Assembly (NCBI GenBank): GCA_020216625.1
Contig: JAIUYB010000013.1
Span: forward strand, 1-14,096
DNA length: 14,096 nt
Reading direction: 5' to 3'
From: Desulfarculus sp.
GTDB taxonomy: Bacteria > Desulfobacterota > Desulfarculia > Desulfarculales > Desulfarculaceae
A model generated the notes under the pieces. That model did no database searches. It was not told the origin of the DNA and was given only the letters and a program-made list of their open reading frames with translations. Positions 1 to 14,096 of the stretch are shown one piece after another. Position 1 is the first letter of the stretch, and the number at the start of each line of letters is the position of its first letter. Both the position numbers and the translations under genes were made by a program.

Positions 1-87
1 CATCTACGGGAGCGACCAGCGCCGGTTCAGGGTACAGCCCCACCCGACCCGTGTACGCCCGTCGCGGCGCGCGACCGCGACCGCGAC

Positions 88-1650
88 CTATTTGGCGTAG
101 TCCACGGCCCGGGTTTCGCGGATCACGGTGACCTTGATCTGGCCGGGGTACATCATCTCGGCCTCGATCTTGCGGGCCACGTCGTGGGAGAGCAATAGCG
201 CCTGCTCGTCGCTGGTCTTTTCGGCCTCCAGGACGATTCGCACCTCGCGGCCGGCCTGGATGGCGTAGGACTGGCTGACTCCCTGGAAGGAGTTGGCGAT
301 GCGCTCCAGGTCCTCCAGGCGCTTGACGTAGCTTTCCAGCATCTCGCGCCGGGCTCCGGGGCGGGCGCCGGAGAGGGCGTCGGCGGCCTGGACCAACACC
401 GCCAGGACGCCCTCGGGCGGGATGTCCTCGTGGTGGGCCTGGATGGCGTGAACGATGTGGGGTTTTTCGCCGTAGCGCTTGGCCAGGTCCGCGCCCAGCA
501 GGGCGTGGGGGCCTTCCACCTCATGGTCCACGGCCTTGCCGATATCGTGCAAGAGCCCGGCCCGCTTGGCGTGCTTGGGGTTGATGCCCAGCTCGCTGGC
601 CATGATGCCGCAGAGGAAGGCGACTTCCAGGGAGTGCTGCAAGACGTTTTGGGCGTAGGAGGAGCGGTAGCGCAGGCGGCCCAGGAGGCGGATGAGCTCC
701 GGGTGCATGCCATGGACGCCCACGTCGAAGGTGGCCTGCTCGCCGGCCTCCTTGACGCTGGCCTCCACCTCGGTGGCCACCTTCTTGACCACCTCCTCGA
801 TGCGGGCGGGGTGGATGCGTCCGTCGCTGATCAGGCGTTCCAGGCTCAGGCGGGCGATTTCCCGGCGCATGGGGTTGAACCCGGAGAGGATCACCGCCTC
901 GGGGGTGTCGTCGATGATCAGGTCCACCCCGGTGGCGGCCTCGATGGCGCGGATGTTGCGGCCTTCGCGGCCGATGATGCGGCCCTTCATTTCGTCGCTG
1001 GGCAGGCTGACCACGCTGACCGTCTTTTCCACCGCGTAGTCGCCGGCGTAGCGTTTGCAGGCCAGGGCCAGGATTTCCTGGCATTTCTTGGCGGCCTATT
1101 CCTTGGTCTCCTGCTCCACCCGTTTGAGGGTTTTGGCCGCCTCGTGGCGGGCCTCGTCCTCCACGGTCTGGATGAGCTGGGCGCGGGCCTCCTCCTGGGT
1201 CATGGCCGCGATGCGCTCCAGGGTTTCTTTTTGTTGGGCCACCAGGTGGTCGTAATGAGCGCGTTGCTCCTCCACCTGGCGTTCGCGTTCGATGATGGCC
1301 AGCTCGCGGCGGGTGGCCTCCTGTTCGCGGCTCTCCAGGTTGTCGGACTTCTTGTCCAGCAGCTCTTCCTTCTGGGCCAGCCGGCGTTCGAACTGGTTTA
1401 GCTCGCTGCGCCGCTCCTTGGTCTCGGCCTCGAACTCCACCTTCATTTGGTAGATTTGGTCCTTGGCCTGGAGCAGGGCCTCTTTCTTGAGGGTGTCGGC
1501 CTCGCGGCGGGCATCCTCCATCAGTTTCTGGCTCAGGGATTCGACCGAATGGAGCCGGGACTGGGCCTGGCGCAGGCGCACGAAATAGCCCAGCGCCAAG
1601 CCGATGCCCAGGGCGACCAGGGCGGCCAGGATGGCCAGTGTGGTGGACAT
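88..1650 (-). pseudogene. rny: Ribonuclease Y, full-length frame interrupted by one in-frame TAG
   Basis: RNase Y is a membrane-anchored endoribonuclease that starts mRNA decay. Read from ATG 1650 the frame is 520 codons, the usual family length, with one internal TAG at codon 185 (1096-1098). Before it are a single N-terminal membrane helix (about residues 4-24) and a long charged coiled coil. After it are a KH domain ([12 protein letters not shown], about 222-233) and an HD domain with LLHDIGK, its His-Asp at 368-369, the numbering I recall for Bacillus subtilis RNase Y. The ending [12 protein letters not shown] is also typical. AGGAGG at 1655-1660 supports the start. No frameshift is needed: both halves share one frame. 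An automated caller would probably give 1096-1650 and 88-1032, the latter from GTG 1032 without a clear ribosome-binding site. Family identity is certain; whether the gene is broken, misread in sequencing or read through is open. Confidence 0.93.
1096..1098 (-). other. In-frame amber codon (TAG) inside rny
   Basis: The codon sits between ...QETKE and AAKKCQEIL..., just before the KH domain. Aligned from memory with B. subtilis RNase Y, the position falls on a Glu in a KEE stretch, so one G-to-T change from GAG would explain it. Other genes here end properly at TAG (zapB-like, atpC, atpD, atpG, rodA and rny itself), so TAG is not reassigned genome-wide. Confidence 0.9.
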
Positions 1651-1652
1651 GG

Positions 1653-1681
1653 GACCTCCTTGTTCAGCGCGCAAGGAGGTC
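1653..1681 (-). promoter_or_regulatory. Perfect 10-bp hairpin enclosing the rny Shine-Dalgarno
   Basis: Arms at 1653-1662 and 1672-1681 are perfect reverse complements (on the minus strand GACCTCCTTG and CAAGGAGGTC) around a 9-nt loop. The 3' arm holds the AGGAGG used by the rny ATG at 1650. The 5' arm contains ACCTCCTT, the sequence of the 16S rRNA anti-Shine-Dalgarno. In the mRNA the stem would hide the ribosome-binding site, which suggests translational control; that role is inference. Confidence 0.6.
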
Positions 1682-1726
1682 GAGACCGCGACAAGCGAAG
1701 GATCGGATTCCGAGTCGGGGCAAGGG

Positions 1727-1981
1727 CTAGGTTAGCGCCGGCAAAGCCACGGCGTGGGGCGCACCCCCGCGCAGTCGTGGGCCGACAGGCTCAACCACCG
1801 GAATTTCAGGCATCACCGGGCCGAACCGCCCCTTGACCGGGCGGTCGGCCGGCATCCAAAGCCAGGCCGCGAGTTGTGCGCGGCTGGCCGTCCACAGGAC
1901 CCAAAGCAGCAGCCGCCACCCGCATGACCAAATCCGCGCGTGGTCGCTCATCGCCGCCCAGGCATCCCGGCCTTTTTTCAT
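1727..1981 (-). CDS. Possible small protein between 6S RNA and rny (doubtful)
   Basis: This is an open frame of 84 codons starting at ATG 1981 (MKKGRDAW...) and ending at TAG 1727. A Trp/Leu-rich segment at about residues 27-48 could be a membrane helix; the rest is Pro/Gly/Arg-rich. I recognise no family. Its third-position GC looks lower than in neighbouring genes and the region just upstream has no convincing ribosome-binding site (a GGAG lies too far away). The frame stays open further upstream, but only through the 6S RNA structure, so a longer version is unlikely. It may equally be non-coding leader of rny. Confidence 0.25.
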   Translation of the reverse strand: MKKGRDAWAAMSDHARIWSCGWRLLLWVLWTASRAQLAAWLWMPADRPVKGRFGPVMPEIPVVEPVGPRLRGGAPHAVALPALT

Positions 1982-2031
1982 TCCCAGACCAATCTCCGCT
2001 TTTTTACGAGAGTCTAGAAGAGGCCCGCCCC

Positions 2032-2210
2032 GCCTCCGCCGTGTGGCGAATCGTTTTTGAACCTGGTTTTTCCAGGTGGGCCGGGCGTGGCCTGGTTCGG
2101 GTCCCCCGCATGGAGGGTCCACCCCCTTGTCGGCCAGTGGCATTCGGCCCGCGTCAATACATGTTGGCTCAAAAGATCCTTTCGCCCAAACCACGGACGG
2201 CGCAGGAGGC
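2032..2210 (-). ncRNA. ssrS: 6S RNA (candidate, by fold and position)
   Basis: 6S RNA binds the housekeeping RNA polymerase holoenzyme and lowers transcription in stationary phase. The 179 nt beginning 8 nt after the zapA stop fold as expected. The closing helix pairs GCCTCC (2205-2210) with GGAGGC (2032-2037), continues with GCCGT/ACGGC, and then GTGG/CCAC or GGCGAA/TTCGCC (2181-2186 with 2045-2050). A large central bubble follows, with TGAGCCAA (2164-2171) on its 5' side, close to the E. coli 6S TGAGCC as I remember it. On its 3' side is a small hairpin, ACCTGG/CCAGGT (2061-2077). The interrupted GC-rich apical stem includes GGGCCG/CGGCCC (2145-2150 with 2078-2083) and TGGCC/GGCCA (2132-2136 with 2088-2092). 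Length, fold and the position beside zapA all match the family; ends are approximate. Confidence 0.78.
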
Positions 2211-2217
2211 CTCAAGC

Positions 2218-2490
2218 TCATGCGTGCTCTATCTTGGCGAGCAGCCTCTCGGTCTTGGTCTCGATCTCCTGGAGCAAATGCTCTTGCTTGTCTTGCAGTT
2301 GCAAGAGTTCGTTGGTTATGTTCAACGCGGCCAGCACCGTGGCCGCCAAGGTGGAACTGGTGTTGGTGTTGGTCAGAACCTCGTTGAGCCGGGCGTTGAG
2401 ATGGGCCGCCACGCGCCGCAGTTGGCCTTCACTGCCCTCGGTGCGCAGCAGGTACTCATTGCCCAGGATCTGAATCTTGACCGATGCCAA
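2218..2490 (-). CDS. zapA: Cell division protein ZapA
   Basis: ZapA binds FtsZ and bundles its filaments at the Z-ring. The 90-residue product opens with VKIQILGNEYLL, the N-terminal beta strand pattern of the family, followed by a globular head and a long C-terminal coiled coil (about residues 55-90: LNITNELLQLQDKQEHLLQ). The start appears to be TTG 2490: the only nearby ATG (2500) is out of frame and an in-frame TGA lies three codons upstream. The AGGGAG sequence abuts the TTG too closely, so AGGA about 9 nt upstream is the likelier ribosome-binding site. The gene begins 11 nt after the ZapB-like gene, so the two are probably cotranscribed, and 6S RNA follows it directly. Confidence 0.88.
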   Translation of the reverse strand: MASVKIQILGNEYLLRTEGSEGQLRRVAAHLNARLNEVLTNTNTSSTLAATVLAALNITNELLQLQDKQEHLLQEIETKTERLLAKIEHA

Positions 2491-2501
2491 CTCCCTTCAT
2501 C

Positions 2502-2720
2502 CTATAGCGATTCCAGCTTCTGGACCAGGCTCTCGATGCGGCCGCGCACCTCCTGGCGCTCCGCGTCCTGGGTTTTGAGGAGCTCGTTCAGCTCCGCCAC
2601 TTCGGCATCTTTGTCATTCAGCCGCGCCTTGAGCGCCTCGTTCTCCGCGCCGAGGGCCTTAAGGCGCGAAATCAGCTCCTCGATCTTGGCTTCCAGTCTG
2701 CTAAACGCGGCTATTTCCAT
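2502..2720 (-). CDS. zapB: ZapB-like short coiled-coil cell division protein
   Basis: This 72-residue protein is almost entirely heptad-patterned coiled coil (repeats such as LEAKIEELISRLKAL and IESLVQKLESL) with no globular domain. That, its size and its position immediately upstream of zapA fit ZapB, which joins the Z-ring through ZapA in E. coli. Coiled coils of this length are poorly distinguishable by sequence, so the name rests largely on context. ATG 2720 is the first start after a plausible promoter; the upstream GGTGAAAAG is a weak ribosome-binding site. The gene ends with TAG. Confidence 0.7.
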   Translation of the reverse strand: MEIAAFSRLEAKIEELISRLKALGAENEALKARLNDKDAEVAELNELLKTQDAERQEVRGRIESLVQKLESL

Positions 2721-2748
2721 ATGCTTTTCACCGTGATTCCCGCTACAA

Positions 2749-2777
2749 AAAATAAGTTATGGCCTGCCGGCGGTCAA
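2749..2777 (-). promoter_or_regulatory. Putative sigma70 promoter for zapB-zapA-6S RNA
   Basis: On the minus strand TTGACC (2772-2777) is followed after 17 nt by TATTTT (2749-2754). This is the AT-rich part of the glmS-zapB gap. Transcription would begin near 2742 and run through zapB, zapA and the 6S RNA. I found no clear separate promoter just before the 6S RNA. Confidence 0.5.
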
Positions 2778-2822
2778 GGCTTTTGTTACGCTTGTGCCCC
2801 TTCCCACATGCGGACCATGGTT

Positions 2823-4661
2823 TCATTCCACGGTAACGCTCTTGGCCAGGTTGCGCGGCTGGTCCACGTCGGTGCCCCGGAGCACCGCCACGTGGTAGGC
2901 CAGCAGTTGCAACGGCACCACCAGCAGGATGGGGGCCAGGAGCGGGGGGCAGGCCGGCACGCTGATGACGGCGTCGGCCAGGGCGTGGGCCGCGGCGTTG
3001 TCGGGCTCGGTGACGGCGATCAGCTTGCCGGACCGGGCGCGCACCTCCTGCATGTTGGAGAGCACTTTTTCCAGCACGTCGTTCTGGTTGGCCAGCACCA
3101 CCACCGGCATCTGGTCGTCGATCAGCGCGATGGGGCCGTGCTTCATCTCGCCCGCCGGGTAGCCCTCGGCGTGGATATAGCTGATTTCCTTGAGCTTGAG
3201 CGCACCCTCCAGGGCGATGGGATAGCAGAGGCCCCGCCCGAGGTAGAGGAAGTCCTTGGCGGTGCAGAAGGTTTCGGCCACCGCCTTGACCTCGTCCTCC
3301 CGCTCCAGCACCTGCTGGACCAGGCCCGGCAGGGCCACCAGCTCCTCCACCAGGCGCAGGGCTTTTTCCTCGCCGATGACCCCGCGCACCCGGCCCAGAT
3401 GCAGGGCCAGCAGGCACAGGGCCGCCAACTGGGTGGTGAAGGCCTTGGTGGAGGCCACCCCGATCTCCGGCCCGGCGTAGGTGTAGAGCACGCCGGCCGA
3501 CTCGCGGGTCAGGGAGCTGCCCACCACGTTGCAGATGGTCAGGGCCTTGGCGCCCTTGGCCTTGGCCTCGCGCACCGCGGCCAGGGTGTCGGCGGTCTCG
3601 CCGGACTGGCTGATGGCCACCACCAGGTCGCCGGGGCCCACCAGGGGGTCGCGGTAGCGGAACTCGCTGCCCAAGTCCACCTCGGTGGGCATTTTGGCCA
3701 GGCCCTCCACCAGGAACTTGCCCACCAGGGCGGCGTGGTAGCTGGTGCCGCAGGCCAGGAAGATCAGCCGCTTGGCGGCCTTCATCTCGGCGTCGGCCGC
3801 CGAGAGGTCGGGCAGGAAGACGTCCGGGTTGCCTTGCTTCACCCGCCCGGCCAGGGTGTCCACCAGGGCCCGGGGCTGCTCGAAGATCTCCTTCTGCATG
3901 AAGTGGGTGAAGCCCGCCTTTTCGGCCATGGCCGGGGACCAGGAGATGACGTCGGTCTTGCGCTCCTGGGGGTTGCCGGCCACGTCGGTGATCTGGTGGC
4001 AGCCGTCCTTGATCACCACCACGTCGCCGTCGTTCAGAAAGACCACCCGGTTGGAGTGGGCCAGGAAGGCCGGCACGTCCGAGGCCAGGAAATACTCGCC
4101 CGCTTCGCCACCCAGGCCCAGGATCAACGGCGAGTCCTTGCGCGCGCCGATGATCGTACCGGGCTGGCGTCGGTCCAGGATCACCAGGGCGTAGGAGCCG
4201 CGAATGTGGCGGAGGGCCTGGTAGACCGCGGCCGCCAAGTCGGGCGCGCCCTGGTCCAGCTTGGTCTGCACCAGGTGGGCCACGATCTCGGTGTCGGTCT
4301 CGGAGCTGAAAACGCAGCCCCGGGCCACCAGCTCCTCCTTGAGCTCCAGGTAGTTCTCGATGATGCCGTTATGCACCACCGCCACGTCCTGGGCCAGGTG
4401 GGGATGGGCGTTGGTCTCGCTGGGCCGGCCGTGGGTGGCCCAGCGGGTGTGGCCCATGCCCAGGTTGCCACAGAGGGGATCGGCCTCCAGCTTGGCGCGC
4501 AGGCCGGAGAGCTTGCCCTGGGCTCGGCGCACCGCGAACTGGCCATCCAGGACCAGGGCCAGGCCGGCGGAGTCATAGCCGCGGTATTCCAGGCGGCTAA
4601 GTCCCTCCATGATGACCTCGACCGCATTTTTAGGCCCGATATATCCGATGATGCCGCACAT
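2823..4661 (-). CDS. glmS: Glutamine--fructose-6-phosphate aminotransferase (isomerizing)
   Basis: GlmS makes glucosamine-6-phosphate from fructose-6-phosphate and glutamine, the first committed step to UDP-GlcNAc. The 612-residue product is full length. The glutaminase domain begins MCGIIGYIG, with Cys2 the nucleophile after Met removal, and has RWATHGRPSETNAHPH near 73-88. Two sugar isomerase (SIS) domains follow, with CGTS (304-307), SQSGET (351-356) and the KEISYIHAEGYPAGEMKHGP segment (491-510). The C-terminus DQPRNLAKSVTVE carries the family's conserved lysine. ATG 4661 has AGGAG about 11 nt upstream and leaves the nucleophile at position 2, so the start is firm. It lies downstream of the GlmU-like gene in the same pathway, separated by 289 bp. 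Confidence 0.97.
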   Translation of the reverse strand: MCGIIGYIGPKNAVEVIMEGLSRLEYRGYDSAGLALVLDGQFAVRRAQGKLSGLRAKLEADPLCGNLGMGHTRWATHGRPSETNAHPHLAQDVAVVHNGIIENYLELKEELVARGCVFSSETDTEIVAHLVQTKLDQGAPDLAAAVYQALRHIRGSYALVILDRRQPGTIIGARKDSPLILGLGGEAGEYFLASDVPAFLAHSNRVVFLNDGDVVVIKDGCHQITDVAGNPQERKTDVISWSPAMAEKAGFTHFMQKEIFEQPRALVDTLAGRVKQGNPDVFLPDLSAADAEMKAAKRLIFLACGTSYHAALVGKFLVEGLAKMPTEVDLGSEFRYRDPLVGPGDLVVAISQSGETADTLAAVREAKAKGAKALTICNVVGSSLTRESAGVLYTYAGPEIGVASTKAFTTQLAALCLLALHLGRVRGVIGEEKALRLVEELVALPGLVQQVLEREDEVKAVAETFCTAKDFLYLGRGLCYPIALEGALKLKEISYIHAEGYPAGEMKHGPIALIDDQMPVVVLANQNDVLEKVLSNMQEVRARSGKLIAVTEPDNAAAHALADAVISVPACPPLLAPILLVVPLQLLAYHVAVLRGTDVDQPRNLAKSVTVE

Positions 4662-4950
4662 TGATTTTTCATCTCCTGGGCGCTTGCCGGGGGGAGCCTG
4701 TCACGGGAGAAAGGGCCCCCCGGCCCCCCTCCCAAAGAGCTTCTCCGCCAACGGCGGGTCGCCATTGGCGCGCTCTTCCTGGGTCTCAAGCATACCTTAA
4801 AGCCAGGGTGATTGGCCATCGGCTCTTACGGAAACCAAAGGCTCCCGTCCAAGCGCCGCGCGGCCTAACCCGCCACCGTGTATTGATTTTTGGGAAGGGG
4901 GCCCGGGGCGAGCCCTTTCGCGGATAAAAGGGCTCCCCCCCCGGTTTTAT
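4662..4950. other. Gene-free spacer between the GlmU-like gene and glmS
   Basis: These 289 bases hold no convincing ORF on either strand. The frame that would continue the GlmU-like protein does not encode the hexapeptide-repeat acetyltransferase domain. A perfect 9-bp hairpin lies near the GlmU end. TTGGAC-18-TAAGAG on the minus strand is a poor promoter match, so the glmS promoter is not settled. No glmS ribozyme core was recognised. Confidence 0.6.
4910..4935 (-). terminator. Perfect 9-bp hairpin after the GlmU-like gene
   Basis: GAGCCCTTT (4910-4918) and AAAGGGCTC (4927-4935) pair perfectly around an 8-nt loop, 15 nt after the stop codon. In the minus direction the stem is followed by C/G-rich sequence instead of a U-tract, so it is not a canonical intrinsic terminator. 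It may be an RNA 3'-end stabiliser. Confidence 0.4.
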
Positions 4951-5688
4951 TCAGCGGGCCGGGCCGGTGATCTGGGCCTCGATGGCGGCGAGTTCTTCCT
5001 TGGAATTGATGCCGGCCACCTCCAGGGGGTCGGGGCACAGGGCCAGACCCACCTTGCGGCCGGCCTGGTCCAGGAGCTGGACCAGATCGGTGAGGTAATA
5101 CTCTTTCTGGTCGTTGTCGTTGCCGATTTGGGGCAGGAACTCCAGCAGGTCGGCGGCCTGGGCCACGTAGATGCCGGCGTTGACGATCTTGATGGCGCGC
5201 TCGGCCGGGCTGGCGTCGCGGAACTCCACGATGCGGGTGAGTTGGCCGGCGGGAGTGGTGACCAACCGGCCATAGGAGCCGGGGTCATCGAGCTCCATGC
5301 CCAGCACGGTCAGGGCGTTGCCCTGGTCGGCGTGGGTGGCCAGCAGGGCGCGGACCGTGGCTGGTTTGAGCAGCGGCACGTCGCCGCAGAGGATCAGCAC
5401 CGGCCCGCTCCAGTCGGCCAGCTCCGGGGCGGCGCAGAGCACGGCGTGACCGGTGCCGAGCTGGGGTTGCTGCCGGGCGAAGCGCAGGTTGGGACGACCG
5501 GCGAAGGTCTCCTGGACCAAATCGGCCTGGTGGCCCACCACGGCCACGATGCGGCCGGCATCAAGGCTTTGGGCCAGGTCCAGGACATGGGCCAAGAGCG
5601 GCCGCCCGGCCAGGGGGTGCAGGACCTTGGGCAGGTCGGATTTCATGCGGGTGCCCTTGCCCGCGGCGAGGATGACGACGGCCAGCAT
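4951..5688 (-). CDS. glmU: UDP-GlcNAc pyrophosphorylase domain protein (GlmU-like, single domain)
   Basis: The 245-residue protein matches the N-terminal uridylyltransferase domain of GlmU, which joins GlcNAc-1-phosphate to UTP. Visible are VVILAAGKGTRMKSDLPKVL (4-23), the nucleotide-binding signature; QLGTGHA (76-82); CGDVPLL with the metal-binding Asp at 103; YGR (139-141); and AGINSKEEL with the second metal ligand Asn at about 228. The sequence stops at TGA where bifunctional GlmU (about 450-460 residues) continues into the left-handed beta-helix acetyltransferase, and no such sequence follows in any frame I checked. GGAGG six bases before ATG 5688 supports the start. It is either a genuine one-domain enzyme with the acetyltransferase elsewhere, or a paralogous nucleotidyltransferase. 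It sits 186 bp after atpC. Confidence 0.85.
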   Translation of the reverse strand: MLAVVILAAGKGTRMKSDLPKVLHPLAGRPLLAHVLDLAQSLDAGRIVAVVGHQADLVQETFAGRPNLRFARQQPQLGTGHAVLCAAPELADWSGPVLILCGDVPLLKPATVRALLATHADQGNALTVLGMELDDPGSYGRLVTTPAGQLTRIVEFRDASPAERAIKIVNAGIYVAQAADLLEFLPQIGNDNDQKEYYLTDLVQLLDQAGRKVGLALCPDPLEVAGINSKEELAAIEAQITGPAR

Positions 5689-5725: not shown

Positions 5726-5801
5726 TCGGATCAATCGTCGCTGGACAAGTTTATCAGCGCCGGGCCCACCCGCATCCGCATCCTGGCCGATGCCACCACG
5801 A

Positions 5802-5834
5802 AACGGGCGCTCCCCGATCAGGAGAGCGCCCGTT
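5802..5834 (-). terminator. Stem-loop at the end of the atp operon
   Basis: AACGGGCGCTC (5802-5812) pairs perfectly with GAGCGCCCGTT (5824-5834) around an 11-nt loop, about 40 nt past the atpC stop. In the transcript the stem is followed by TTCGTGG, a poor U-tract. On the opposite strand it is followed by TTGACTTTTCG. It is a strong stem with a weak tail, so termination may be partial. Confidence 0.55.
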
Positions 5835-5874
5835 GACTTTTCGCGCCGGTCCGCCAAGGCGGGCGGGACAGAGC

Positions 5875-6294
5875 CTAGGCCGAGGGACGGCCCTTCTCGG
5901 CCACCCGCATGCGCAGCATGGCGCGCTGGAGGGCGGCCTCGGCCCGGGAGTACTCCAACTGCTCGGTGGCGGCCTTGGCGATGCGCTGCTCGGCGCGCTC
6001 GCGGGCGCGCTTGGCCCGGTCCAGGTCGATCTCGCGGGCCAGCTCGGCCGCCTCGGCCAGCACGGTCACCTTTTCGCCGGTGACCTCGGCGAAGCCGCCG
6101 CTGACCGCGGCGTAATCGGTGGCGTTGCCATCACGGAAGCGCAGCTCGCCGATGGCCAGGGCGGACAGGAACGGCACGTGGCCGGCCAGGACGCCGAACT
6201 CGCCGTCCACGCCGGTGCAGACCACCACGTCCACGTCCTTGCTCAGCAGGAGCTTGTCCGGGGTGACGACTTCCAACTTGATCTTGTTGGCCAT
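5875..6294 (-). CDS. atpC: ATP synthase F1 subunit epsilon
   Basis: Epsilon is part of the rotating central stalk of F1 and can inhibit ATP hydrolysis. The 139-residue protein has the usual two parts: an N-terminal beta sandwich (residues 1 to about 85, with LEVVTPDKLLLSKDV and GEFGVLAGHVPFL) and a C-terminal helical hairpin rich in Ala, Arg and Glu (about 88-135). The length is normal. ATG 6294 has AAGGGG about 10 nt upstream. It is the last gene of the F1 cluster, separated from atpD by 140 bp that contain a strong hairpin, and it ends with TAG. Confidence 0.95.
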   Translation of the reverse strand: MANKIKLEVVTPDKLLLSKDVDVVVCTGVDGEFGVLAGHVPFLSALAIGELRFRDGNATDYAAVSGGFAEVTGEKVTVLAEAAELAREIDLDRAKRARERAEQRIAKAATEQLEYSRAEAALQRAMLRMRVAEKGRPSA

Positions 6295-6390
6295 GGGCTA
6301 TTGACCCCTTCCTGCGTATCTATCCCGGCGGGGATGGGCCCGGGGGGGTTAGTCTCCCCGCCTCTTGGGCGACCCGCCGCCTTTGCGGTG

Positions 6391-6419
6391 CGGGGCGGGG
6401 ACCAATGGACCCCGCCCCG
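6391..6419 (-). other. Very GC-rich stem-loop between atpD and atpC
   Basis: CGGGGCGGGG (6391-6400) and CCCCGCCCCG (6410-6419) are perfect reverse complements around a 9-nt loop that can add two more G-C pairs past a mismatch. It lies 16 nt after the atpD stop and about 100 nt before atpC. No U-tract follows, so intrinsic termination is unlikely. A role in RNA stability, or in lowering epsilon output relative to the other subunits, is inference. Confidence 0.55.
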
Positions 6420-6434
6420 TTGAAGGTCATTCGC

Positions 6435-7847
<1,413 letters not shown>

Positions 7848-7881
7848 CTACGAGCCTCCTCGCAAGAAGCGTTTGGGTTTG

Positions 7882-8760
7882 CTAACCCTGTTTCAGGGCC
7901 TCGGCGCCGCCCACAATGTCCATCAGTTCGGCGGTGATCGCGCTCTGGCGGGCCTTGTTGTACAGCAAGGTGAGATTGTTGATCATCTCCTTGCAGTTCT
8001 TGGTGGCGTTGTCCATGGCGGCCATGCGCGCGGCCTGCTCGCTGGTGGCCGTCTGCAAAAGAGCGTTGTAGACCCGCACGTTGATGTAGCGCGGCAGCAG
8101 GTCCACCAGGATCTCCTCGGCCGAGGGCTCGATGAGATACTCGGACGCGCCGCCGGCCTCGCCCTCGGCCGCCGCCTCGGGAGAGATGGGCAGCATCTTC
8201 TCCGCGGTGGGGACGAAGGAGGCCATGGAGGCGAACCGGGAATAGATCAGGTGGACCTCCTGGGCCTGGCCGCCCAAAAAGGCGTTTAAACCCAGGCGGG
8301 CGACCTGCACCGCCAGGTCGAAGTCCACCACGTTCATCACCCCGGACAGGTCCTGGGCGATCTCAACCTTGCGGCGGCGGAAGTAGTCGCGCCCCTTGCG
8401 GCCCACGGTGTACAAGAGAACCTGGCGTCCGGCCTGGGTCTGCTCCTTGATGAAGCGCTCGGCCTTGGTGATCAGGTTCATGTTGAAGGAGCCGCAGAGA
8501 CCGCGGTCGGCGGTGAGCAGGATGAGGGCCACCGTTTCCACCGACTCCGGCTGGGCCAGCAGGGGATGGATCTCGGGATCCACCCCCGCGCTGACGCTGC
8601 GCAGGACGTCGGCGAACTTGCCGGCGTAGGGCTTGAAGCGCTCGGCCTTTTCCTGGACCCCGCGCAACTTCGCCGCCGCCACCATGTTCATGGCCCGGGT
8701 GATCTGCCGGGTCTTTTTGACCGCGGAGATCTTGTTCTTGATATCTCGCAGCGCTGCCAT
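7882..8760 (-). CDS. atpG: ATP synthase F1 subunit gamma
   Basis: Gamma is the rotating central shaft of F1. The 292 residues match the family's usual length. The N-terminal helix (RDIKNKISAVKKTRQIT) and the C-terminal helix (MINNLTLLYNKARQSAIT) form the antiparallel coiled coil inserted in the alpha/beta ring; the middle is a Rossmann-like domain containing TADRGLCGSFN (83-93). A short Ala/Glu/Gly-rich insert lies near residues 194-210. ATG 8760 has GGAAGG 7 nt upstream. The gene starts 19 bp after atpA. Confidence 0.97.
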   Translation of the reverse strand: MAALRDIKNKISAVKKTRQITRAMNMVAAAKLRGVQEKAERFKPYAGKFADVLRSVSAGVDPEIHPLLAQPESVETVALILLTADRGLCGSFNMNLITKAERFIKEQTQAGRQVLLYTVGRKGRDYFRRRKVEIAQDLSGVMNVVDFDLAVQVARLGLNAFLGGQAQEVHLIYSRFASMASFVPTAEKMLPISPEAAAEGEAGGASEYLIEPSAEEILVDLLPRYINVRVYNALLQTATSEQAARMAAMDNATKNCKEMINNLTLLYNKARQSAITAELMDIVGGAEALKQG

Positions 8761-8779
8761 TGGCGACCTTCCTTAGCGC

Positions 8780-10288
8780 TTAGGCCTGGAAGACCGATTC
8801 GAACTCGGTCAGCACCTTCTTGAACTTGGCGTCCAGGTCGTCGTCAATGGCCTTCTTGGCCTCCAGGTCCACCCACAGGTCGGGGTGCTTGGACTCCACG
8901 AACTCGTACATGGCCTTCTCGTAGTCGGCCAGGCGGTCCACCGGATATTTGTCCAGGAAGCCGCGGGTGCCGGCGTAGAGGATGGAGACCTGCTTGACCA
9001 TGGGCAGCGGCTGATACTGGGGCTGCTTGAGGATCTCCACCAGGCGGCGACCACGGTTGAGCTGCTGCTGGGTGGCCTTGTCCAGGTCGGAGCCGAACTG
9101 GGCGAAGGCCTCCAGCTCGCGGAACTGGGCCAGGTCCAGGCGCAGGGTGCCGGCCACCTGTTTCATGGCCTTGACCTGGGCGGCGCCGCCCACCCGCGAG
9201 ACCGACAGACCGACGTTGATGGCCGGCCGCACGCCGGAGAAGAACAGGCCCGGCTCCAGGTAGATCTGGCCGTCGGTGATGCTGATCACGTTGGTGGGGA
9301 TGTAGGCGCTGACGTCGCCGGCCTGGGTCTCGATGACCGGCAGGCTGGTCAGGGAGCCGGCGCCCAGCTCGTCGCTCATCTTGGCCGAGCGCTCCAACAG
9401 GCGGCTGTGGTTGTAGAAGATGTCGCCGGGGTAGGCCTCGCGTCCCGGCGGACGGCGCAGCAGCAGCGAGATCTGGCGGTAGGCCACCGCCTGCTTGCTG
9501 AGGTCGTCGTAGCAGATCAGGGCGTGGCGGCTGCTGTCCCGGTAGTACTCGCCGATGGCGGTGCCGGAGTAGGGCGCGACGTACTGGAGGGTGGCGGGGT
9601 CGGAGGCGCAGGCGCTGACCACGCAGGTGTACTCCATGGCGCCGTAGCGGGTGAGCGTGTCGATGACCTGCGCCACGGTGGACTTCTTCTGTCCCACCGC
9701 GACGTAGATGCAGAACACGTCCAGGCCCTTCTGGTTGATGATGGCGTCGACCAGGATGGCCGTCTTGCCGATCTGGCGGTCGCCGATGACCAGCTCGCGC
9801 TGGCCGCGACCCACCGGGGTCATGGCGTCGATGGCCTTCAGACCGGTGTACATGGGCTCGTGGACGCTCTTGCGGGCCACGACGCCGGGAGCCACCATCT
9901 CGATGCGGCGGAACTCGGTGGCGTTGATGGGGCCCTTGCCGTCCAGCGGGTTGCCCACCGGGTCGATGACGCGGCCGATGACCGCGTCGCCCACCGGCAC
10001 CTCGGCGATGCGGCCGGTGCGCTTGACCACGTCGCCTTCCTTGATGTGCTCGGTCTCGCCCATGATGGCCACGCCCACGTTGTCCTCTTCGAGGTTGAGG
10101 ACCATGCCCAGGATGCCGTGGGGGAACTCCAAGAGCTCGCCGGCCATGGCCTTCTCTACGCCGTGGATGCGGGCGATGCCGTCACCGACGGAGAGAACGA
10201 TGCCGGTTTCCGAGACCTCGACCTTTTTGTCGTAATCCTTGATTTGTTCCCGGATTACCTGACTGATCTCTTCGGCTCTGATCTGCAT
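8780..10288 (-). CDS. atpA: ATP synthase F1 subunit alpha
   Basis: Alpha forms the non-catalytic nucleotide sites of F1 and supplies the arginine finger to beta. The 502-residue protein has the barrel domain, the P-loop GDRQIGKT (169-176; Ile where many homologues have Thr), the [15 protein letters not shown] segment (276-289), and VSRVGG with the arginine finger at 365. ATG 10288 overlaps the atpH stop by one base (TAATG), which implies translational coupling; AAGGGG lies farther upstream than is ideal. The C-terminal helical domain is complete and ends FESVFQA. Confidence 0.98.
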
Positions 10289-10839
10289 TAGGCGTATTCA
10301 CCCCTTCTCAAGGAATCCTTTAAGCTCTCCAGCTGGGTCCGGAGGCTGCCATCCAGCACCAGATCACCGATCCGGGCCACGACACCACCGATCAGGCTGG
10401 GGTCCTCTTTCACTTCCAGTTTCACCTCGCGGCCGGCCACTTCCTTGAGGGTGGCGGACAGGCGCTGGATCTCCGCATCGTTCAGGCCGGCGGCCGAGAC
10501 CACCTCCGCCCGGGTGATGCCCTTGACCTCGTCGATGAACTGCTGGTAGACCTCGTTGATGGCCCGGACCGCGCCGATGCGGCCGCGATCCATCAACAGC
10601 TTGAAGAAATTGTTGACCAGGGGGCTCAAGCCGGCCTTGGCCAGGATGGCGTCGAGCAGGTTCTTCCGACCCTCGAAGGCGAAGGCCGGATTGCCCAGGG
10701 CCGGCTCCAGCTCGGGGGACTGGTTCAGGATCCCCACGAACTCAAGCACCTCCCGACCGTACTGCTCGAACTTGCCGTCTTCCTTGCCCAGTTCCAGCAA
10801 GGCCCGCGCGTAGCGCTTGGCGACGATCAGGTTGGTCAC
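10288..10839 (-). CDS. atpH: ATP synthase subunit delta
   Basis: Delta (the OSCP homologue) fixes the top of F1 to the peripheral stalk. The 183-residue protein has the N-terminal six-helix domain (begins [16 protein letters not shown]) and the C-terminal region with the family signature [20 protein letters not shown] (about 150-169). The start is GTG 10839, whose bases overlap the atpF stop as GTGA, a classic coupled junction. The stop overlaps the start of atpA. Size and both domains are normal. Confidence 0.96.
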
Positions 10840-11429
10840 TGTACCTCCCGTTGCACTTTGGCCAGGTATTCGCTCACCAACCGGGTGTGGTCCTCGGCGG
10901 TGATGTTTTGCTTCAAGAGGTCCTCGGCCAGGGCGGCGGACATGTCGGCGATGTCGCGCTTGAGCTCGGCCTTGGCCGCCGCGGTCTCCTGCTCGATGGT
11001 GAACTGGGCCTGGGCCTTGATGCGCTCGGCCATCTGCTGGGCGCTGGCCAGGATCTTCTCCCGCTCACGCTCGCCCAGGGCCCGGAACTCGGCCAGGATC
11101 TTCTCGCGCTCGCCCTCGGCGTCCTTCAGGCGCTGGTCGATCTCGGCGTAACGGCGCTTGGCCTCCTCGCGCTTGGCCTCCAGCTCGGCCAGCTCGTTCT
11201 TGATCTGCTCCACCCGGCCGCTGAGCCCGGCCTTGAGCGGCTTGCGCAGCACCACCACCAGCACGATGGCCAGCACCGCGAAGTTCATCGCGCGCCAGAC
11301 CAGGTCCAGGTTGGGGCCAGTCACGTGATGGCCGCCAGCCTCGGAGGCCAGGGCCAGGCCCGCGCCCAGGCCCACCACCGCGATGGCTCCCAGACCCGCC
11401 AGCCAGCGCACACCCTTGCTCGCACGCAT
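10836..11429 (-). CDS. atpF: ATP synthase Fo subunit b, with signal-like N-terminal extension
   Basis: Subunit b is the peripheral stalk that links delta/F1 to the membrane. I take ATG 11429, giving 197 residues; it overlaps the atpF' stop as TGATG. The protein has two hydrophobic segments. Residues 8-28 end in ALASEAGG, resembling a signal peptide with a cleavage site. Residues 43-61 (about MNFAVLAIVLVVVLRKPL) match the usual b-subunit anchor. The rest is a long charged coiled coil (GRVEQIKNELAELEAKREEA and onward). The canonical E. coli b (156 residues, from memory) lacks the first segment. The frame stays open upstream only as a shadow of atpF'. Confidence 0.93.
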   Translation of the reverse strand: MRASKGVRWLAGLGAIAVVGLGAGLALASEAGGHHVTGPNLDLVWRAMNFAVLAIVLVVVLRKPLKAGLSGRVEQIKNELAELEAKREEAKRRYAEIDQRLKDAEGEREKILAEFRALGEREREKILASAQQMAERIKAQAQFTIEQETAAAKAELKRDIADMSAALAEDLLKQNITAEDHTRLVSEYLAKVQREVQ

Positions 11430-11863
11430 CACTGGATGCTCCTTCCCAAAAGCTTCTGGGCCAGCTCGCGGCCAAAGGACTGCACCTGGCCCTTGAGCTC
11501 CTCGCGCACCCCGCCGATCTCGGCGGCGATCTGCTGGCGCACCCGGGCCACCGTCTCCTCCATCTCCTTGGTGGCCGCCGTGATCAGCTCGCGTTCCTGG
11601 CCCCGGGCGTCGCCCTTGATCTCCTCGCGCAGGGCCGCGCCCTGGCTGCGGGCGCCGGCGCGCTCGGCCTCCAGGGCCTTGGACTGAGCCTCCACGCCCT
11701 CCAGGCTGGCGCTGATATCGCCGTTGAGCTGGGCGATCTTCTCGGCCCGCTGCTGCAGGATGCCCCGGATGGGCTTGTACAGCACCGCGTTGAGCACCAG
11801 CATCAGGACCAGGAAGTTGACGATCTGGAACCCTAAAGACCAATCTATGTCGATACTTACCAT
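11429..11863 (-). CDS. atpF': ATP synthase Fo subunit b' (second b-type subunit)
   Basis: This 144-residue protein is a short b-type stalk subunit: one membrane helix (about 10-30, GFQIVNFLVLMLVLNAVLYK) followed at once by KPIRGILQQRAEKI and a coiled coil to the end. With the b gene immediately downstream it forms the b/b' heterodimer arrangement known from cyanobacteria, photosynthetic proteobacteria and, as I recall, many Desulfobacterota. It is the first gene of the atp cluster. ATG 11863 has AGGG 4 nt and GGAG 11 nt upstream. Genes for subunits a and c are not in the window and must be elsewhere. Confidence 0.93.
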   Translation of the reverse strand: MVSIDIDWSLGFQIVNFLVLMLVLNAVLYKPIRGILQQRAEKIAQLNGDISASLEGVEAQSKALEAERAGARSQGAALREEIKGDARGQERELITAATKEMEETVARVRQQIAAEIGGVREELKGQVQSFGRELAQKLLGRSIQ

Positions 11864-11941
11864 ACGACCCTGCTCTCCGTACCCCTAGGCGTGGCGCGTT
11901 GCTCGGCTCCGTTAGGTTCCGTTGGCTACGTTGTGTCGGTC

Positions 11942-11961
11942 AAAATAAAAGGCAGCTTGCC
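11942..11961 (-). terminator. Short hairpin with T-rich tail in the atp leader (possible attenuator)
   Basis: On the minus strand GGCA-AGC-TGCC (11951-11961) is followed directly by TTTTATTTT (11942-11950). An alternative bulged stem GCAaaGC/GCTGC is also possible. The stem is only 4-5 bp, so termination would be weak. Position between the upstream structured element and atpF' is what makes it notable. Confidence 0.3.
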
Positions 11962-11986
11962 AGGCTTTGCGCCCAGAGCACGGCGA

Positions 11987-12071
11987 GGGGAGTTGGATTC
12001 GCGGGCCTGGTCACGCAGACCCCACATCAACGCTGGCAGGCCGACCCCAAGGTCAAGAGTCCGAACTCCCC
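11987..12071 (-). promoter_or_regulatory. Structured 5' leader element of the atp operon
   Basis: The outer stem pairs 11987-11994 with 12064-12071 (8 perfect pairs, GGGGAGTT/AACTCCCC) and continues past a bulge with GGA/TCC. Inside it are a stem GGCCTG/CAGGCC (12004-12009 with 12037-12042) and, directly adjacent, a hairpin GACC/GGTC (12043-12046 with 12051-12054), giving a three-way-junction-like fold. It lies roughly 50 nt after the predicted transcription start. I match it to no known riboswitch class. Confidence 0.4.
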
Positions 12072-12128
12072 ACCTCCATCAAGCCAATGGGCGCTTCCCC
12101 ACTTGTGATGCAAATGACAAGCTGCGAG

Positions 12129-12157
12129 TTTCTACAATATTTCATACGCGGTGTCAA
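12129..12157 (-). promoter_or_regulatory. Sigma70-type promoter of the atp operon
   Basis: TTGACA (12152-12157), a perfect -35 hexamer, is followed after 17 nt by TAGAAA (12129-12134; 4 of 6 matches to TATAAT) in an unusually AT-rich patch. Transcription would begin near 12122, giving a leader of about 260 nt before atpF'. Confidence 0.7.
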
Positions 12158-12193
12158 AACATTTTTTCCCAGGACTGGCGCGGGCTAATCCAA

Positions 12194-12589
12194 TCAGCCC
12201 TTGGCCGAGAGCAGGGTGATTCGCCCCCGGTTCTCGTCCAGTTCCTGGTCGGTGGTCATGGAGCAATGCCCCTCGAAAACCACCCCTTCGTCCATCACCA
12301 CCAAGGGCGCGGTGATATTGCCCTTGAGCCGGCCCGGGGTCTTGAGCTCCAGGCGCTTGGTGACCACCACGTCACCCACCAGCTCGCCGCTGATGATCAC
12401 CGTGGCCGCGTTGACCAGGGCCTCGACCTTGGCGTTGGGGCCGATGAACAAGGTGCCGTCGCCCCGGATGTTGCCTTGGAAGCGGCCGTCCAGGCGGGCC
12501 TGACCGGTGAAGATCAGCTCGCCCAGGATCTGGCTTTCGCCGCCCAGGAACATGGTCAGGTCGTTTTCCCGCGTTTGCTTGCCCAACAA
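12194..12589 (-). CDS. Bactofilin family protein
   Basis: Bactofilins polymerise without nucleotide into filaments that scaffold cell-shape and polarity proteins. From TTG 12589 the product is 131 residues. A polar N-terminal tail leads to the DUF583 beta-helix core (about 13-110): FLGGESQILGELIFTG, RLDGRFQGNI, TLFIGPNAKVEALV, VIISGELVGDV, and the family's VFEGHCSM near 104-111. TTG 12589 is preferred because GGAAGG lies 8 nt upstream; TTG 12586 is nearly as good. The frame extends to GTG 12655, but the added residues are Arg/Gly/Pro-rich, unlike bactofilin, and overlap a GC hairpin. Its place after rodA fits a role in wall growth. Confidence 0.9.
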   Translation of the reverse strand: MLGKQTRENDLTMFLGGESQILGELIFTGQARLDGRFQGNIRGDGTLFIGPNAKVEALVNAATVIISGELVGDVVVTKRLELKTPGRLKGNITAPLVVMDEGVVFEGHCSMTTDQELDENRGRITLLSAKG

Positions 12590-12619
12590 GGCTCTCGCCT
12601 TCCCGCCCCGGGGACAGGT

Positions 12620-12643
12620 CGCCCCCAGGGACCCTCGGGGGCG
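12620..12643 (-). other. GC hairpin in the leader of the bactofilin gene
   Basis: CGCCCCC (12620-12626) pairs with GGGGGCG (12637-12643), with inner AGG/CCT pairs past a one-base bulge. It lies about 30 nt before the TTG start. No U-tract follows, so it looks like a leader stem and not a terminator. Confidence 0.4.
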
Positions 12644-12736
12644 CCTGGACGCCACGGCCTGGACTGTATCGCTTCCGCCGCCGGCATGACGGCCTTAGGA
12701 CTAGATTTCACTAACACGCTACCCTGCGTCCTGGCA

Positions 12737-12765
12737 ACAAAAATCGCCCCAGGTCCACCGGGGTG
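12737..12765 (-). terminator. Weak candidate terminator after rodA
   Basis: Just past the rodA TAG, a short CCCC/GGGG stem (alternatively CCACC/GGTGG) is followed on the minus strand by GCGATTTTTG. The T-run is fair but the stem is short, so termination is uncertain. Confidence 0.3.
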
Positions 12766-12766
12766 G

Positions 12767-13873
12767 CTATTGCCGCCGAAAGACGAAGCGGCGCATGGCC
12801 ACGCTCTGGATCAGCCCCAGGGCGGCCATGGTGGTGATCAGGCTGGAGCCGCCATAGGAGATGAAAGGCAAAGGTATGCCCACCACCGGGAACATGCCCA
12901 CCACCATGCCCACGTTGATGAACGACGGCCAGAAGACGCAGGCCGTGGCCCCCACCACCATCAACATGCCCAGGCGGTCCTTGGCCCTCAGGGCCTGCAC
13001 CAGACCGCGGTAGACCACCGCCGCCAGGAGGATCAGCACCACCACCCCGCCCACGAACCCCCATTCCTCGGCCAGCACCGAGAATGCGAAATCGGTGTGC
13101 TGCTCGGGCAAAAAGTGCAACTGACTCTGGGTGCCGGCCATCCAGCCCTTGCCCATGAACTGGCCCGAGCCCACCGCGATCTTGGACTGGATCAGGTGGT
13201 AGGAGGCGCCCAAGGGGTCGGATTCCGGATCCAAGAAGCTGAAGATGCGCTTCTTCTGATAATCCTTGAGGAAGGTCCAGACCAGGGGCAGGGCTCCCAG
13301 GAAGGCCCCCCCCGCCATGGTCAGGGAAAAGAGCTTCACCCCGTTGACCAGGATGATGGAGCCGCCCACGATCAGCACCATCACCGCGGTGCCCAAATCG
13401 GGCTGCTTGAGGATCAATAGGGCCGGCAGGGCCATCAGGGCGCAGGGAATGACCAGTTGGCGCAGGTTGTAGGGCTCGTTCTGGTCCCGCCGCTGGAAGT
13501 ACTGGGCCAGGACCAGGATCACCGCCAGGCGGGCCAGCTCCGAGGGCTGGACCACGATCGGCCCCAAGGCCAGCCAGCGCTGGGCCCCGCCCACCACCCG
13601 GCCCCAGAGCAGCACCGCCATCAGGGCGACCACCACCAGGGCGTAGAAGGGATAGGCCAGGGTGGCCAGGCGCTGGTGGCCGATCATGGCCACCGCGCAC
13701 ATCACCCCCAGACCAATGGCGAACCAGTACAACTGCTTGAGGAATACCGGGGTGCCCACGTTCTCGAAGCTGCTGGCGGCGCTGTAGAGGTTGATGGCCC
13801 CGCAGCCGACCACCGCGGCCAGCAGCACCACCAAGAGCCAGTCGAAATTGGTCACCAAGCGTCGGTCTATCAC
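12767..13873 (-). CDS. rodA: Rod shape-determining protein RodA (SEDS glycosyltransferase)
   Basis: RodA polymerises lipid II into glycan strands in the elongasome, paired with PBP2. The 368-residue protein is almost wholly hydrophobic with about ten membrane helices. SEDS family motifs are visible: AQRWLALGP (97-105), QPSELARL (109-116), KQPDLGTA (156-163), GKGWMAGTQSQLHFLPEQHTDF (241-262) in the large periplasmic loop with the essential Asp at 261, SVLAEEWGF (265-273), and GIPLPFISYGGSS near the end. The start is GTG 13873 with GGAGG 8 nt upstream. It lies 22 bp after the preceding gene, so cotranscription is likely. Confidence 0.96.
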   Translation of the reverse strand: MIDRRLVTNFDWLLVVLLAAVVGCGAINLYSAASSFENVGTPVFLKQLYWFAIGLGVMCAVAMIGHQRLATLAYPFYALVVVALMAVLLWGRVVGGAQRWLALGPIVVQPSELARLAVILVLAQYFQRRDQNEPYNLRQLVIPCALMALPALLILKQPDLGTAVMVLIVGGSIILVNGVKLFSLTMAGGAFLGALPLVWTFLKDYQKKRIFSFLDPESDPLGASYHLIQSKIAVGSGQFMGKGWMAGTQSQLHFLPEQHTDFAFSVLAEEWGFVGGVVVLILLAAVVYRGLVQALRAKDRLGMLMVVGATACVFWPSFINVGMVVGMFPVVGIPLPFISYGGSSLITTMAALGLIQSVAMRRFVFRRQ

Positions 13874-13895
13874 TGCCTGGGCCTCCCCCCGCCGC

Positions 13896-14096
13896 TCACG
13901 GCCGGCGATAGGTGGAAGGGTTCAGGACCGGGTCCTGGGAATCGCCTCGGAAGGGGCGGGGGCGGCCATTGGCTTCCGCCGCCGTGGTTCCGGGCCTTTT
14001 CTTCTCCGCCGGCTTGGCCGCCGGCTTCTTGGCCGGGGCGGGAACCGGGTCCGGGGGCTTGGGCCGGGCCGGCGCGGCCGCCGCCTGCGGCTTGGC
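13896..14096 (-). CDS. mrdA: C-terminal tail of an upstream gene, probably PBP2 (partial)
   Basis: An open frame enters at the right edge and gives 66 residues before TGA 13896. The sequence is low-complexity, rich in Pro, Ala and Lys (AKPQAAAAPARPKPPDP, AKKPAAKPAEKKRP), and ends STYRRP. No catalytic motif is visible because the body of the protein lies outside the window. The name rests on synteny: mrdA (penicillin-binding protein 2) normally sits immediately before rodA, and disordered Pro/Ala/Lys-rich tails occur in PBP2 proteins of high-GC relatives. The coding frame itself is well supported by its third-position GC bias and its short gap to rodA. Confidence 0.6.
   Translation of the reverse strand, partial: AKPQAAAAPARPKPPDPVPAPAKKPAAKPAEKKRPGTTAAEANGRPRPFRGDSQDPVLNPSTYRRP

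Follow-up and report, generated by a model that had tools for sequence, protein, structure and literature searches.

A single in-frame amber codon in an otherwise conserved RNase Y gene of a draft Desulfarculus genome

The stretch of DNA analysed here (14,096 nucleotides, hereafter the window) is the entire contig 314 of a Desulfarculus sp. assembly that comprises 2,978,421 bases in 557 contigs and is 70.03% complete. Its minus strand carries rny, the gene for RNase Y, and translation of this frame revealed one internal TAG (Table 1), whereas the normal terminator of the gene, also TAG, lies at positions 90..88. The preliminary description of this DNA had reported a lone in-frame amber codon in an rny gene that was otherwise intact, and this was confirmed at codon 185 of 520. 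Between zapA and rny a full-length match to 6S RNA (RF00013) was observed at 2023-2211 of the minus strand (45.9 bits, E 1e-7), which is below the gathering score of 46.4. Also on the minus strand, positions 4951-5688 encode a nucleotidyltransferase of 245 amino acids with NTP-transferase-type matches only. The aligned length is 236-244 codons in four relatives and 78 in a fifth, and the protein is shorter than the usual bifunctional GlmU.

Table 1. Features of the rny locus, in window coordinates.
Feature	Position	Strand	Evidence
rny (RNase Y), 520 codons, one internal TAG	88..1650	-	Translation; Pfam RNase_Y_N, KH_1 and HD; 29 aligned relatives
Internal TAG, codon 185, where the nearest relative (G005) has CAG (Gln)	1096..1098	-	Translation, alignment
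N-terminal piece, codons 1-184; full Shine-Dalgarno before the ATG	1099..1650	-	Pfam RNase_Y_N; AAGGAGGT 3 bases from the ATG
C-terminal piece, codons 186-520, KH and HD, no stop; dN/dS 0.034 against G005	91..1095	-	Pfam, codon comparison
GTG codon 207, restart proposed earlier; no upstream Shine-Dalgarno match	1030..1032	-	Start-site inspection

The pieces on either side of the stop were scanned apart against Pfam. RNase_Y_N was found 5' of the stop, and KH_1 (~214-268) and HD (~336-427) were found 3' of it, so that the whole RNase Y domain set (RNase_Y_N, KH, HD) is present in the expected order. The RNase_Y_N match spans across the stop, which falls within its last tenth, and KH begins further downstream. 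The earlier placing of the stop, after the coiled coil and ahead of the KH domain, is therefore near enough: the stop does precede KH, but it still lies inside the RNase_Y_N match. The N-terminal piece presumably corresponds to the membrane segment and coiled coil of RNase Y. The gene resembles RNase Y in its domains, their order, its length and its 96.5% protein identity with the nearest genus mate, and differs from it in that the frame is not uninterrupted, the TAG at codon 185 being absent from every relative examined. This genome contains one RNase_Y_N match. No second rny copy was found among the 40 of 197 first-look candidates that were scored, the sole other DNA match being of 55 bases at 76%.

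RNase_Y_N was searched in 40 genomes, this one included, and was matched in all 40. No stop was present inside the match in any of the 39 relatives, each of which is open over at least 520 codons, and the interruption was found in this genome only. Those 29 of the 39 relatives with an rny match whose loci were returned were aligned. The alignment of rny from close relatives that had been suggested gave a sense codon at position 185 in 29 of 29, namely Ala in nine, Ile in seven, Thr, Ser and Gln in three each, and Val, Asn, Glu and Met in one each. A wider set was formed by the best 80 of at least 542 confirmed database loci (genome_contigs), at least three of which (L057, L058 and L059) come from relatives already counted. 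In these best 80 the site was always covered by a sense codon with no stop in the aligned frame, and Glu was the commonest residue (24/80). In the set of genomes examined the rny TAG is thus confined to this one, and the column at codon 185 tolerates many residues. Glu, put forward earlier as the probable family residue, is not conserved in this column, which is variable in the 29 relatives, although Glu is the commonest residue in the wider set. In the nearest relative, G005, whose rny is 93.9% identical at the DNA level, this codon is CAG, and hence the one-base difference is C to T, which leaves the proposed change of GAG to TAG unsupported. The other four genus mates read Ala (three) or Thr (one), so the ancestral base at codon 185 cannot be placed from them.

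The window is collinear with contig 87 of G005 in two blocks, 3-5687 (92.0% identity) and 5792-14076 (94.5%). No indel relative to G005 was found in the 13 genes measured, rny included. In rny, dN/dS against G005 was 0.152 over the 183 codons compared before the stop. Codons 186-520 gave 0.034, the lowest value among the 13 segments compared. The earlier statement that the gene shows no other decay is borne out by the lack of indels and by the dN/dS values on both sides of the stop. Amino-acid differences in rny were placed with four outgroups; five fell on the window branch and two on that of G005, and 11, including codon 185, were unplaced. Base changes were placed in rny, zapA, glmS and glmU, using four outgroups (three for glmU). 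In these four genes 17 non-synonymous and 50 synonymous changes were assigned to the window branch, and 13 and 52 to the G005 branch, so that this genome does not clearly exceed G005 in private nonsynonymous changes; a high general error rate is thus unsupported. G:C-to-A:T was the largest class of placed changes on both branches (43/67 and 42/65, respectively), so that a real C-to-T mutation is equally natural. In summary, rny shows no sign of long decay, and random errors are not clearly in excess in the stretch. A plasmid blastn search gave eight partial matches only (60-80% identity), none of which reached 80% query coverage.

Other in-frame stops were sought with a reference-free codon-usage scan, which reports same-frame stops flanked by coding signal. 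The sample consisted of 60 of the 557 contigs, 15 of which (all shorter than 3 kb) read only N, and amounted with the window to 336,986 bases. Five candidates were obtained: the rny TAG, one TGA and three (L178, L210 and L211) that were rejected as ordinary junctions between genes with separate domains. The TGA, at 7954-7956 of L177 (contig 398 of this genome), lies inside a family-2 glycosyltransferase and corresponds to TGG (Trp) in five of five genus orthologs. A comparison with orthologs from G005 (25 genes) and from a further genus mate, G002 (47 genes), revealed the rny TAG in both sets and one TGA in L163, and no frameshift-like case. The TGA in L163, a locus whose gene we take to be that of trigger factor, was dropped because it lies upstream of the likely gene start. 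As controls, 230 kb of G005 and 656 kb of G002 were scanned likewise and yielded six and 25 candidates, respectively; the starts that follow each candidate were inspected. No broken gene was found among these 31, 26 of which were judged by eye only. Three control candidates (L221 4568, L248 1513 and L190 13570), which lacked a clear start or consisted of a long frame pair, were rejected, since separate domains lie on either side. Contig 80 of G002 (L257) contains an in-frame TGA at 7460-7462, in a flavin/ferredoxin protein that is presumably HdrA-like. The adjacent frame has another at 8192-8194, preceded by Fer4 domains and followed by a CCG domain, and both resemble selenocysteine codons. 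At least two lone interruptions are therefore present in the assembly; they represent two stop types, and both are G:C-to-A:T with respect to relatives. The occurrence of two stop types fits a background of error or mutation and not UAG reassignment, and two cases are too few to claim more interruptions here than in the relatives.

These results indicate that the rny stop is very probably an isolated base difference without function, a statement that takes together an error or minor-strain base and a recent nonsense mutation. Both a sequencing or assembly error and a recent nonsense mutation had been listed in the preliminary description, and both fit the evidence. The stop resembles the single-base in-frame stops of drafts and pseudogenes, in being one base away from the sense codon of a relative, in its conserved flanks and in the presence of another case, with a different stop codon, in the same assembly; no difference from them was detected. 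Our literature search on stop errors in draft genomes found no paper. In yeasts, a genetic-code screen attributed some apparent stop-to-Trp inferences to in-frame pseudogene stops (available text of PMC8629427).

We infer that the TAG reflects an error, or else the base of a minor strain, and is not a fixed mutation; this reading is given a probability of about 0.58. The change from CAG to TAG, as read against the nearest relative, would then be one isolated base in the consensus of a fragmented draft, produced by faulty sequencing or consensus calling or contributed to the assembly by a minor strain, and cells of the living population would make a normal RNase Y of 520 residues. This reading is favoured by the open frames in 39 of 39 relatives, the sense codon in 29 of 29 aligned relatives and the conserved gene around the stop, as well as by the second lone interruption (TGA for TGG), likewise G:C-to-A:T, in 337 kb. 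The missing nonsynonymous excess, the lack of any frameshift-like case and the prevalence of G:C-to-A:T on both branches speak against it. What places error above mutation in our weighing is the fragmented state of the draft, together with the severity of RNase Y loss in Bacillus subtilis, where the enzyme is described as quasi-essential in the accessible part of PMC8266666.

A real nonsense mutation, recent and fixed in the strain, which would split RNase Y and so far have brought no further decay, is possible, although we hold it doubtful. The absence of other decay in rny agrees with it, and it would belong to the commonest class of placed changes in the lineage. Deletion of rny is possible in B. 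subtilis, with severe effects, and such a cost, as far as the accessible part of the source goes (PMC8266666), counts against it as well. Moreover, the mutation could have arisen only very recently: of the 13 segments, the one with the lowest dN/dS is the stretch of 335 codons 3' of the stop.

That a suppressor tRNA, such as one for Gln with a CUA anticodon, reads through this UAG is very improbable. Gln, encoded by CAG in the nearest relative, is indeed what a Gln amber suppressor would replace at this codon. No CUA anticodon was present among the 22 tRNA matches (RF00005) of the 70% complete genome; 21 of them were named by ARAGORN and have ordinary anticodons, and the remaining one, truncated at a contig edge, was read by eye as Glu CTC. 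With 30% of the genome missing, the absence of a CUA tRNA is unproven, and such a tRNA could sit in the missing part. However, RF1 is intact and over its cut-off in this genome, and TAG is an ordinary terminator: five of the 13 genes of the window end at TAG (rny, atpC, atpD, atpG and rodA), against six with TGA and two with TAA. The earlier remark that several neighbours end normally at TAG was thus correct for atpC, atpD, atpG and rodA, and applies to rny itself. Decoding of UAG as sense would lengthen atpG by 484 codons, across atpD in another frame, and the other four genes by 15 to 63. The marks of UAG reassignment, TAG avoidance and RF1 loss, are accordingly absent. In addition, the second interruption is a TGA, which a CUA tRNA could not read. 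Still less credible is the idea that the amber codon is fixed and serves as a low-level control on RNase Y, being read by a Gln tRNA with a CUA anticodon whose gene would lie outside the assembled sequence.

A designed split into two polypeptides, with a coiled-coil anchor in the membrane and a soluble KH-HD nuclease translated from a start beyond the stop, would accord with the position of the stop ahead of the KH and HD domains. The rny ATG is preceded, three bases upstream, by the full Shine-Dalgarno sequence. The first ATG, GTG or TTG past the stop is the GTG from which the nuclease had been proposed to start; this GTG exists, at codon 207, but it lacks an upstream Shine-Dalgarno match, as does ATG 221. 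GTG 213 has a four-base match at a distance of 15 bases, and AGGA lies four bases ahead of CTG 194, a weak signal at a rare type of start. An internal restart was rejected, only these weak four-base matches (CTG 194 and GTG 213) having been found among the first candidates. The split occurs in none of the 39 relatives and in none of the best 80 of at least 542 loci. Two separate polypeptides, as suggested before, are consequently disfavoured by the lack of a good restart signal and by the open frames of the relatives examined, and we consider them highly unlikely.

The genome was also searched for pyrrolysine genes, as had been proposed together with the search for amber suppressors, and PylS and PylB remained below their cut-offs. 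No match to the PylS C-terminal model over the cut-off was obtained in this genome, in its five genus mates (two of which, 97% and 99% complete, likewise lack it) or in 14 other family members; there were weak matches only, and these occurred equally in most control genomes. The PylS N-terminal model gave no match in this genome and was positive in the Methanosarcina control. PylB did not exceed its cut-off in any of the six genus genomes (this one and the five mates), with weak sub-threshold matches only. Five of the 40 genomes gave PylS C-terminal matches over the cut-off (L031-L034 and contig 258 of G039); these five belong to a single different family within the class. The available text of PMC8318568 describes the use of pyrrolysine in marine Deltaproteobacteria and links it with proteins of trimethylamine metabolism, among which RNase Y does not fall. 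The likeness to this system consists in the UAG codon and in PylS elsewhere in the class; the difference is that neither this genome nor its genus mates nor the family sample showed PylS above the cut-off. Read-through by pyrrolysine or a suppressor, which had been raised as a possibility, is disfavoured by these searches, by the tRNA set and RF1 and by the ordinary use of TAG, and insertion of pyrrolysine at a column as variable as that of codon 185 is the least probable of the explanations, being hardly credible.

The lone stop in rny is ordinary and does not point to new biology. It does advise caution: when a conserved gene in a fragmented draft shows a lone stop, the nearest relative should be compared, and so should the other stop types within the same assembly, before read-through is proposed.
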